Below are positions 9,965 to 13,260 of a stretch of DNA of 64,000 nucleotides, one piece after another; positions within the stretch are counted from its first letter, which is position 1; every line of letters starts with the position of its first letter. Made by a program: the position numbers and the translations under genes. The stretch comes from Streptomyces sp. WP-1 (GTDB lineage: Bacteria; Actinomycetota; Actinomycetes; Streptomycetales; Streptomycetaceae). The stretch covers positions 6,014,001 to 6,078,000 of the forward strand of contig NZ_CP123923.1 of NCBI RefSeq assembly GCF_030450125.1, written 5' to 3'. Below the pieces are notes generated by a model that saw nothing but the letters and a program-made list of their open reading frames with translations, was not told where the DNA came from and ran no database searches.

Positions 9965-10738
9965 TCACTCCCAGCGGAAGAGCTTGCCCGCCGCCGCGAG
10001 CCCCACGACCGCCCACACGGCGAGGATCCCCAGGTCGCCCCAGGGCATCCCGGCGCCGTGCTGGAGCACGTCCCGCAGGCCGTCGGAGAGGGCGGAGATG
10101 GGCAGCAGGCCGAGGATGTGCTGTCCGGCCGAGCCGAACTTGTCCAGCGGCACGATGACCCCGCCGCCGACGAGCAGCAGCAGGAACACCAGGTTGGCCG
10201 CGGCCAGCGTCGCCTCCGCCTTCAGGGTGCCGGCCATCAGCAGGCCGAGCCCGGAGAAGGCGGCGGTGCCGAGGACCAGGAGGAGCAGCACGGCGGCGGG
10301 GTTGCCGTGCGGGGACCAGCCGAGCGCCAGGGCGATCGCCGCCAGCAGGATCACCTGGAGCACCTCGGTGACCAGCACGGACGCCGTCTTGGCGGCCATC
10401 AGGGCCCAGCGCGGCAGCGGCGAGGCGGCGAGCCGCTTGAGGACGCCGTAGCGGCGCTCGAAGCCGGTGGCGATGGCCTGTCCGGTGAACGCGGTCGACA
10501 TCACGGCGAGGGCGAGGATGCCCGGCGCGAGGAAGTCGACGGCCTTGCCCTTGCCGGTGTCCACGATGTCCACGGAGCTGAACAGCACCAGCAGCAGGGT
10601 CGGGATGACGACCGTCAGCAGCAGCTGCTCGCCGTTGCGCAGCAGCATCCTGGTCTCCAGGGCCGCCTGCGCCGCGATCATGCGGGGCAGGGGCGCGGCC
10701 CCCGGCTTGGGCGCGTACGTACCCGGCGCGGTGGTCAT
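9965..10738 (-). CDS. ABC-2 type transporter permease
   Basis: A 257-residue membrane protein with about six hydrophobic segments; the first (LLLTVVIPTLLLVLF) follows a short cytoplasmic start and MSTAFTGQAIATGFERRYGVLKRL is the typical ABC-2 loop. It is the partner of the ATPase encoded just upstream (10827-11750) and the pair forms a drug- or lipid-export type transporter; the substrate is unknown. Its ATG at 10738 overlaps the stop of a 31-codon open frame in the junction, not the ATPase stop. Confidence 0.92.
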   Translation of the reverse strand: MTTAPGTYAPKPGAAPLPRMIAAQAALETRMLLRNGEQLLLTVVIPTLLLVLFSSVDIVDTGKGKAVDFLAPGILALAVMSTAFTGQAIATGFERRYGVLKRLAASPLPRWALMAAKTASVLVTEVLQVILLAAIALALGWSPHGNPAAVLLLLVLGTAAFSGLGLLMAGTLKAEATLAAANLVFLLLLVGGGVIVPLDKFGSAGQHILGLLPISALSDGLRDVLQHGAGMPWGDLGILAVWAVVGLAAAGKLFRWE

Positions 10739-10767
10739 GAGCGCAGCTCCTTGCCGGTCAGCTCCAG
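10735..10767 (-). repeat. Duplicated stop/start junction, copy A
   Basis: A 33-bp sequence containing LELTGKELRS, a TGA and the overlapping ATG. It matches 10827-10859 at 32 of 33 positions with an offset of 92 bp; the mismatch is at 10741 versus 10833. Copy A holds the permease start. Confidence 0.95.
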
Positions 10768-10830
10768 GCTGTGTCCTCCTGGGGGGCGACCCCCGGGCCC
10801 CCGGCCGATCTCCGTGCGGGTCGAGATCAT
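10735..10830 (-). CDS. 31-codon linking open frame between ABC genes
   Basis: Starts with ATG at 10830, overlapping the ATPase stop (ATGA), and ends with TGA overlapping the permease ATG. It begins MISTRTEIGRGPGG and ends LELTGKELRS, the same last residues as the ATPase. It was probably created by duplication of the ATPase-permease junction. It may be translated only as a relay that keeps the two genes coupled; a functional peptide is unlikely. Confidence 0.35.
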   Translation of the reverse strand: MISTRTEIGRGPGGRPPGGHSLELTGKELRS

Positions 10831-10859
10831 GAACGCAGCTCCTTGCCGGTCAGCTCCAG
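10827..10859 (-). repeat. Duplicated stop/start junction, copy B
   Basis: The original end of the ATPase gene (LELTGKELRS and stop). Near-identical to 10735-10767. Confidence 0.95.
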
Positions 10860-11750
10860 AAAGACGTCTTCCAGGGTGTGCCGTTCGACCGAGATGCGGT
10901 CCGGCATCACGCCGTGCTGGGCGCACCAGGAGGTCACGGTGGCCAGCAGCTGCGGGTCGACCTGGCCGACGACGCGGTAGGCGCCCGGGGTCAGCTCGGC
11001 GGCGGTGCAGCCGTCCGGGAGGGCCTTGAGCAGCGAGGCGACGTCGAGTCCGGGGCGGCCGGAGAAGCGCAGGGTGTTCTCGGCGCCGCCCTTGCACAGC
11101 TCTTCCGGGGAGCCCTGGGCGATGACCTTGCCGCCGTCGATGATCGCGACGTCGTCGGCGAGTTCCTCGGCCTCGTCCATGTGGTGCGTGGTGAGGATCA
11201 CCGAGACGCCGTCGGCGCGCAGGTCCCGCACCAGGTCCCAGGTGGCCCGGCGGGCCTGCGGGTCGAGGCCCGCGGTCGGCTCGTCCAGGAAGACCAGTTC
11301 CGGGCGGCCGACGACGGCCATGGCGAGCGCGAGGCGCTGCTGCTGGCCGCCGGAGAGCCGACGGTAGGAGGTACGGCCGCAGCTGCCGAGGCCGAGTCGT
11401 TCGATCAGGGCGGCCACGTCCAGCGGGTGGGCGTGCAGCTTGGCGACATGGCGCAGCATCTCGTCCGCGCGGGCGCCGGAGTACACGCCGCCGGACTGGA
11501 GCATCACACCGATCCGGGGCCGCAGCTCGGCCGACTGCCGCACGGGGTCGAGGCCCAGGACGCGCACCGTGCCGGAATCCGGCTTCCGGTACCCCTCGCA
11601 GGTCTCGACCGTCGTCGTCTTGCCGGCGCCGTTGGGTCCGAGAACGGCGGTCACACCGGCCCTGGCCTCCAGGTCGAGGCCGTTCACCGCGGTCTTCGTG
11701 CCGTACCGCTTCACCAGGGCCTGGACCTGGACCACGGGCTCACTTCGCAT
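10827..11750 (-). CDS. ABC transporter ATP-binding protein (exporter type)
   Basis: Cytoplasmic ATPase of 307 residues that powers the neighbouring ABC-2 permease. Walker A GPNGAGKTTT is at about residue 40, the Q-loop MLQSGG follows, the signature is [12 protein letters not shown], Walker B is ELVFLDEPTAGLDP and the switch histidine is in LTTHHMDEAEELAD. The C-terminal extension (about residues 230-307) is typical of drug-export ATPases. The frame is open far upstream into the decayed acetyltransferase, but homology begins at MRSEPVVQVQALVKRYG, so ATG 11748-11750 is the start. Confidence 0.94.
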   Translation of the reverse strand: MRSEPVVQVQALVKRYGTKTAVNGLDLEARAGVTAVLGPNGAGKTTTVETCEGYRKPDSGTVRVLGLDPVRQSAELRPRIGVMLQSGGVYSGARADEMLRHVAKLHAHPLDVAALIERLGLGSCGRTSYRRLSGGQQQRLALAMAVVGRPELVFLDEPTAGLDPQARRATWDLVRDLRADGVSVILTTHHMDEAEELADDVAIIDGGKVIAQGSPEELCKGGAENTLRFSGRPGLDVASLLKALPDGCTAAELTPGAYRVVGQVDPQLLATVTSWCAQHGVMPDRISVERHTLEDVFLELTGKELRS

Positions 11751-11781
11751 GGGACCTGAGTCTAGGGAGAGCGCTCGCCGA

Positions 11782-12343
11782 TCAGTCGCGGGGGTGCGGG
11801 AACCCGTAGGTGACGGGCCTGCGCGCGCGGAGCCACCGCTCGGCGTGGGTCCACGGCGTCCGCCGACGGGAACAGCCGGGCGTCGGCCGCGCCCACCCCG
11901 CCCCGGGCGACGGGCCTCCCCTCCCGCGCGCGGGGCGCCGAGGGCCGCGAAGGAGGTCTGCGGGTGCGCGCTGCGCAGGGCGCCCGGCCGGGTGCGCACC
12001 GTCTCCGGAATCACCCCGACGCCGAGGCGGGGGTGATCAGGGGGTCGTACGGTGGCGATGGTGGCCCGGATCCGGTCCCGCCACTCCTCGGGCACCGGCG
12101 GGTTCACCCATTCGGCCGGGTCCGAGAGGTCGGAGGACTGGGCCGGGACGACCAGGGTGCCGCGGGGACCGAGCGCGTCGAGGAGCGCTTTGACGACCGC
12201 AACGGCCCCGCCGTTCACCCACCCGAGCGAACTTAGGGACGAATGTACGAAGAGCGTCTCGCCGCGCTCGAAGCCGAGCCGCCGCAGTCCGGCGGCGATG
12301 TCGTCCCGGTGGCAAGAGGCCCGGTCGGAGGGGGTGTGACCAT
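11782..12343 (-). pseudogene. Decayed aminoglycoside 3-N-acetyltransferase, AAC(3) family
   Basis: Reading the minus strand with frame changes recovers AAC(3) segments in order: ETLFVHSSLSSLGWVNGGAV, ALLDALGPRGTLVVP, SDLSDPAEWVNPPVPEEW, then PYDPLITP in another frame, GVGVIPETVRTRPGALRS and HPQTSFAALG. A jump follows to VGAADARLFPSADAVD in a second frame and AERWLRARRPVTYGFPHPRD before TGA at 11782-11784. At least four frame changes and a large internal deletion (about 190 codons left of about 260-280) remove any function. The only nearby ATG, 12341-12343, is also out of frame with the first segment. Family members acetylate aminoglycosides. Confidence 0.85.
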
Positions 12344-12440: not shown

Positions 12441-12454
12441 TTAGGTATACCTAA
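12441..12454. promoter_or_regulatory. Iron-box-like palindrome (DmdR/IdeR type)
   Basis: TTAGGTATACCTAA is a perfect 14-bp palindrome. It equals the inner 14 positions of the 19-bp DtxR-family iron box (TTAGG-N4-CCTAA), and the five bases before it (TCAGA) match the outer repeat at three of five. It lies 72 bases upstream of the SufR operator and could place the SUF operon under iron control in addition to SufR. Confidence 0.55.
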
Positions 12455-12489: not shown

Positions 12490-12519
12490 TTGTCAGGCCC
12501 GGATGAATTACGCAACAAT
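12490..12519 (+). promoter_or_regulatory. Possible suf operon promoter
   Basis: TTGTCA (12490-12495) and AACAAT (12514-12519) are spaced by 18 bases and would start transcription at or near the sufR GTG, giving a leaderless message. The SufR operator overlaps the -10 element, as expected for repression. Inferred from spacing only. Confidence 0.45.
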
Positions 12520-12526
12520 GGCGTTG
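12513..12526. promoter_or_regulatory. SufR operator CAAC-N6-GTTG
   Basis: The sequence CAAC AATGGC GTTG matches the 14-bp SufR site reported, as I recall, for the sufR promoter of Streptomyces avermitilis. Its last base is the G of the sufR GTG start codon, so bound SufR would block both the -10 region and the start of a leaderless transcript: autoregulation of the whole operon. Confidence 0.85.
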
Positions 12527-13260
12527 TGAAAAACGTCGGCGAGGCTCGGGAGGCCCCCACGGGGGCCCCGCAGGAGGAGCTCGCGACCGGTGAGCGCTCC
12601 ACGCGCAACCGCGTCGTGCGATCCATCCTGGACCACGGGCCCTCGACCGTCGCCGAACTCGCGGGCCGGCTGGGACTGACCCAGGCGGCCGTCCGGCGCC
12701 ATCTGGACGCGCTGGCCGCGGACGACGTGGTGGAGGCCCGGGAGCAGCGGGTGTACGGCACACGCACGCGCGGCCGCCCCGCCAAGGTCTTCGCGCTCAC
12801 CGACTGCGGCCGCGACGCCTTCGACCAGTCGTACGACAAGCTGGCCGCGGACGCGCTGCGCTGGATCGCCGAGCACGAGGGCGGGTCCGGCGCGGTCGCC
12901 GCCTTCGCCCGCGCCCGGATCGCCTCCCAGGCGAGGGCGTACCGCCGGGCGATCGAGGGCGTGAGCCCCGACAAGCGCGCGGAAGCGCTGGCCAAGGCCT
13001 TGAGCGCGGACGGGTACGCTGCTACGGCGCGCAGCGCACCGGTCGGCGAGCAGCTCTGCCAGCACCACTGCCCGGTCGCCCATGTCGCGGAGCAGTACCC
13101 GCAGCTGTGCGAGGCGGAGACGGAGATCTTCGCCGAGCTGCTGGGTACCCACGTCCAGCGACTGGCGACCATCGCGCACGGCGACGGCGTCTGCACGACG
13201 TTCATTCCCAAGATTTCCACTGACGCACCTGCAAGCACGGCCGGGAGGAACCCCGCATGA
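12526..13260 (+). CDS. sufR: Iron-sulfur cluster-sensing repressor SufR
   Basis: ArsR/DeoR-like winged-helix repressor of the SUF operon, 244 residues. The helix-turn-helix is at about residues 40-75 ([20 protein letters not shown]). With the GTG start at 12526 the cluster-binding cysteines fall at 178, 182 and 195 (LCQHHC ... QLC), the positions I recall for the [4Fe-4S] ligands in the S. avermitilis protein, which supports this start over the upstream TTG. When the cluster is present it represses; cluster loss derepresses (family knowledge). Its stop overlaps the sufB ATG (ATGA). Confidence 0.95.

Follow-up and report, generated by a model that had tools for sequence, protein, structure and literature searches.

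Streptomyces griseus carries a silent chromosomal AAC(3) gene. AAC(3) resistance enzymes belong to Pfam family PF02522, whose catalytic motif, TxPhiHPhiAE, is given in passages of a family-wide study (PMC8956665); those passages also name YokD, BA2930 and FrbF as inactive against aminoglycosides, while the abstract of the study reports that many environmental enzymes of the family confer resistance. A title in the reference list of that study identifies FrbF as a phosphonate biosynthesis enzyme. For SufR of S. avermitilis, a published account (PMC11995493) describes an operator of the form CAAC-N6-GTTG, the last G being the transcription start. In a literature search, with subscription journals mostly outside its reach, none of the listed titles and opening lines of abstracts described the locus presented here.

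Within the window, a stretch of 64,000 nucleotides of the Streptomyces sp. WP-1 genome, we find the remains of an AAC(3)-like (PF02522) gene on the minus strand, extending from a surviving start codon to a surviving stop codon (11782..12343, by direct reading and alignment). The N-terminal half (11931..12251, minus) covers profile positions 1-106 of 232 in the profile search (137.6 bits), and its peptide (P0001) reaches 138.8 bits with an E-value of 2.6e-40, against a gathering cut-off of 25, a match far beyond chance. Searched with PF02522 at E <= 0.001, the whole genome contains the fossil as its sole match. On the 3' side of an internal deletion, a C-terminal remnant (11829..11916, minus) is recognised by nhmmer when searched with a profile built from 64 intact orthologs (39.9 bits, positions 755-841 of the 885 in the profile), while direct reading and alignment place the last piece (11782..11850, minus) in a third frame, where the AERWL...PHPRD tail ends at a natural TGA stop codon (11784-11782).

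The first-pass annotation had described ordered pieces of an AAC(3) enzyme on this strand, and all the peptides that it named are indeed present in that order, with the natural end and stop of the gene retained as it had proposed. It had also separated the pieces by frame changes, which holds insofar as several frames are used; the first three peptides, VHSSLSSLGWVNGGAV, SDLSDPAEWVNPPVPEEW and GVGVIPETVRTRPGALRS, however, share one reading frame, that of P0001. The N-terminal half is open in this single frame except for a short excursion: the PYDPLITP stretch, between SDLSDPAEWVNPPVPEEW and GVGVIPETVRTRPGALRS, is read in a different frame, which bears out the compensating pair of shifts suggested around it. 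VGAADARLFPSADAVD and the last peptide occupy two further frames, that of VGAADARLFPSADAVD being the frame of the fossil's start codon.

The nearest relative found, S. malaysiense MUSC 136, holds an intact 271-aa gene (L002:5036-5851, minus strand; P0002; 296.4 bits against PF02522) in the same place and orientation, flanked as the fossil is by the ABC ATPase and sufR, with 89.4% nucleotide identity to the fossil over 752 aligned columns. Unlike the fossil, this ortholog is whole and carries the catalytic motif at residues 179-185. Alignment to it reveals five single-base steps in the fossil and the loss of about 255 bp from its interior; with the next relative (L085) as reference, the figures are four steps and a 251-bp gap. 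Both comparisons agree with the four or more frame changes and the large deletion first proposed, and since the counts differ by reference, the exact split around the deletion is alignment-dependent. In the numbering of the intact gene, codons 141-225 are gone, and the catalytic motif lies inside the deleted stretch. TxPhiHPhiAE is found in all 64 intact named orthologs, and in none of the three minus-strand frames of 11782-12342. Removal of these codons makes an active enzyme impossible, and the fossil thus reads as the remnant of a PF02522 member that would no longer work.

With a GC content of 69-76%, the region is of the DNA type prone to indel errors, and the frame changes could in principle be sequencing or assembly errors in a gene that is really intact. 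The distribution of the lesions argues against this. In a long alignment to S. malaysiense, the fossil accounts for five single-base gaps within about 460 bp, whereas the coding DNA of the permease, the ABC ATPase, sufR and sufB is free of them; two further ones are located between sufB and sufD. Moreover, no base-call error accounts for the loss of 255 bp together with the catalytic motif, and the genome is assembled as one contig of 7.6 Mb with 99.99% completeness. We therefore consider this explanation exceedingly improbable. The lesions are in the source lineage, and the whole gene stands at the same place in S. malaysiense, as expected of a pseudogene in place. Identity to S. malaysiense amounts to 0.894 for the fossil and 0.884 for the spacer separating it from sufR, compared with 0.947 for the permease, 0.971 for the ATPase, 0.980 for sufR, 0.988 for sufB and 0.977 for sufD.

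We are thus nearly certain that the fossil is a recent pseudogene, a conserved PF02522 acetyltransferase gene inactivated in the source lineage after its split from S. malaysiense. Mechanistically, the ancestral state would have been an acetyltransferase gene divergent from sufR and followed by the two genes of an ABC exporter; small frame changes and the deletion of about 255 bp would then have inactivated the acetyltransferase gene, which may be dispensable in circumstances that the genus meets repeatedly. The exporter, on its side, would survive by means of a promoter of its own just 5' of the ATPase ATG.

The genes of this exporter, as called by ORF and domain search, are an intact ABC transporter ATPase (10827..11750, minus) and its partner, an ABC-2 type permease with an intact ORF (9965..10738, minus). 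Just 5' of the ATPase ATG lies a TAGACT hexamer, kept in 69 of 79 comparable loci (seven of the 79 rows do not end in ATG, probably a few ABC starts having been inferred from matches that begin inside the protein). This suggests a putative leaderless promoter belonging to the ATPase, which would explain why the exporter has outlived the acetyltransferase.

The main frame of the fossil stays open into this downstream ATPase, forming a 463-aa ORF (10827-12218) that the first-pass annotation had not remarked on, and one could read the fossil as a new N-terminal extension of the ATPase, that is, as a fusion protein. A fossil N-terminal remnant in S. cellostaticus GX14503 (L075, 4622-5809) is likewise open into the ABC ATPase, as a 383-aa ORF. 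Nevertheless, the ATPase retains its own ATG and the preceding hexamer, stops are rare at such GC so that a frame opens easily by chance, and the N-terminal half of the fossil comes without an active site. A fusion is in our estimation highly improbable, and we keep to the pseudogene. Unlike the fossil of GX14503, a protein assigned by name to S. cellostaticus (P0022, 271 aa) is complete; intact and broken forms may thus occur under one species name.

Two further observations concern the exporter. At the junction of the ATPase end and the permease start, a 33-nt direct repeat (10735-10767 and 10827-10859) is 97% identical, with its copies 92 bp apart; S. malaysiense lacks a stretch of 92 bp next to the ATPase end, and the repeat looks like a recent duplication, TRF reporting no tandem repeats at the junction. 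As a separate matter, a role in anti-phage defence was considered and rejected, PADLOC having matched neither the intact ortholog nor the permease; the ATPase matched 13 PADLOC models, which we read as general ATPase similarity.

Divergent from the fossil, sufR is intact (12526..13260, plus; from the ORF, its relatives and a published promoter). By analogy with the published promoter of S. avermitilis, we infer a leaderless GTG start at 12526, the longer mechanical ORF beginning at 12490. A CAAC-N6-GTTG sequence at 12513-12526 overlaps this putative start, lies in a highly conserved block and matches the S. avermitilis site as described in the account cited above (PMC11995493). The divergent region also contains a perfect palindrome, TTAGGTATACCTAA (12441..12454, no strand assigned), about 100 bp from the fossil start. 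In a comparison of 81 loci it is present with three mismatches or fewer in 80, loci that lost the acetyltransferase included, and TTAGGTNNNCCTAA occurs at seven places in the source genome against none for a reversed control pattern. The palindrome may serve sufR and not the acetyltransferase.

The first-pass annotation had held that the gene was lost where it stood, with an ABC exporter on one side and sufR on the other, and comparison of the locus in related Streptomyces substantiates it. Besides the intact copy in S. malaysiense, we analysed the best 80 of 518 confirmed SufR loci of named relatives, nearest by SufR and not a random draw, all 80 of which are Streptomyces. In 64 of the 80, an open frame measuring 279-344 aa from stop to stop and divergent from sufR matches nearly all of the fossil N-terminal half; an ABC ATPase stands on its far side in 63 of these 64 and was not found there in the remaining one (L070). 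Seven of the 80 hold broken or partial remains (L017, L019, L028, L055, L064, L071 and L075), detected either with tblastn or with a nucleotide profile built from the 64 intact genes, and eight show no remains at E <= 0.01 (L003, L008, L013, L016, L021, L072, L076 and L078). L079, which is without an ABC ATPase beside sufR, was set apart from these counts. As an observation on spacing, L025 and L061 have roughly 0.9 and 1.2 kb of extra DNA, respectively, separating the ABC ATPase from the intact acetyltransferase.

A second sample comprised 150 genomes drawn evenly from the genus, the source genome included. The fossil N-terminal half is matched in 98 of these and SufR in 148. Positions were compared for 60 match rows, those with E <= 1e-33 plus two weak broken ones, and weaker rows (<=54% identity) were left out. 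On this basis, a gene copy divergent from sufR is present in 53 of the 150 genomes, the two matches being 159-207 bp apart; among the compared rows, no sufR-adjacent copy was seen in the other 97. Of the 53 adjacent copies, 49 have an open frame and four are broken (the source genome, G136, G049 and G007), inspection of the DNA revealing split matches beside intact neighbours in the latter three. G049 and L064 are probably the same genome. In one further member of the sample (G026, also L138; G026:C15:138000-147500), about 6.8 kb separates sufR from an intact acetyltransferase-ABC pair.

The remains might alternatively be a fragment imported from elsewhere instead of a resident gene decayed in place. 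Five of the 150 genomes (G069, G074, G075, G121 and G031) do hold copies 60-66% identical to the fossil N-terminal half and away from sufR, which are possibly moved or transferred relatives. Set against import are the shared place and orientation in 64 of the 80 nearest named relatives and in 53 of the 150 genus genomes, together with the whole gene that S. malaysiense holds at the fossil position, and the probability that we leave to import is practically negligible. Among other genera of Streptomycetaceae, four of 51 genomes were matched at E <= 1e-60. Two of the four (L132 and L134) present the same order of ABC ATPase, acetyltransferase and sufR, and in the other two (L131 and L133) neither neighbour lies within the 3.8 kb examined. 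The shared order implies that the arrangement is older than Streptomyces or was passed on as a block.

A tree of sufR-sufB DNA (81 rows; a quick method with SH-aLRT support and no bootstrap) pairs the source genome with S. malaysiense as its sister (99% SH-aLRT), the two being separated by a path of 0.024. The label "intact" changes 14 times on this tree, at least 10 of the changes being forced by well-supported branches, and some of them could be regains by recombination. The eight fossils, that of the source genome included, fall on eight branches, of which at least seven are forced by well-supported branches. The scatter of labels is near random, 73 of 500 shuffles being as low for "intact". 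Different fossils keep different parts of the gene, which favours separate inactivations.

Where the gene is kept it is constrained, as indicated by dN/dS values of 0.12-0.35 in nine intact-intact pairs (113 codons). For the fossil, dN/dS is 0.335 against S. malaysiense (L002), which is within the range of the intact pairs, 0.399 against L085 and 0.223 against L045. When changes are polarised, the fossil branch carries six synonymous and six non-synonymous ones and the sister branch two and one, numbers too small to speak for relaxed selection. Such a small substitution signal fits a recent loss; decay is proved by the indels and the deletion, not by substitutions alone.

The nature of the lost gene is a separate question. 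The first-pass annotation took it for a resistance gene. A genuine aminoglycoside resistance gene, lost in a host for which these antibiotics had ceased to be relevant, would have several points in its favour: the intact copies are PF02522 members with the full catalytic motif, most named rows among 120 listed proteins are called aminoglycoside 3-N-acetyltransferase or AAC(3) family, and many environmental members do confer resistance according to the abstract of the family-wide study (PMC8956665). However, the S. malaysiense protein and 10 close homologs reach 181-191 bits against the NCBIfam AAC_3 model (NF033082), whose cut-off is 270, and lie far below the cut-offs of the four other AAC(3) models matched, so that all 11 scanned proteins miss the curated cut-offs of AAC_3, AAC_3_II, _IV, _VIa and _VIII. 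The homologs, 78-88% identical to the S. malaysiense protein, were picked from the 120 listed proteins, their genome positions not being individually checked, and to miss a strict NCBI cut-off is not proof of inactivity.

The solved sequences nearest to the intact ortholog are YokD (2nyg, 239 bits), a group of four chains (3e4f, 3ijw, 3n0s and 3kzl; 225-229 bits) and FrbF (3sma, 207 bits). The next chain, 7lap, has 127 bits, 80 or more behind. The four chains bear the table name Aminoglycoside N3-acetyltransferase and are presumably BA2930. All these proteins share the family of the intact ortholog and differ from it in organism and context, and it is this same trio that passages of the family-wide study name as lacking aminoglycoside activity (PMC8956665). 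The claim of a resistance gene is thereby lowered, not disproved; we regard it as unlikely, while leaving it an appreciable share of the probability. As far as sequence comparison can tell, calling this acetyltransferase an antibiotic resistance gene is probably a mistake, its name apparently being inherited from the family. Our best guess is that the substrate of the intact enzyme is not a clinical aminoglycoside but some other amine, probably an endogenous metabolite.

The fossil is in itself an ordinary pseudogene caught early in decay. As to the intact gene, mostly named aminoglycoside N(3)-acetyltransferase in databases, it is a chromosomal resident beside suf in many Streptomyces. We tentatively propose, at a little short of an even chance, that it encodes a conserved Streptomycetaceae acetyltransferase that is not for resistance, sharing its divergent control region with the iron-sulphur operon that SufR regulates and sitting beside an ABC exporter, kept by selection in many species and repeatedly lost. 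If true, the locus would offer a natural gain-and-loss experiment for finding the substrate of the acetyltransferase, and the gene would be a persistent false positive in resistome surveys: should it confer no resistance, estimates of the soil resistome that include it would come out too high. The point worth keeping is that of a resident of the place adjacent to sufR, which has been repeatedly lost and is probably no resistance gene.
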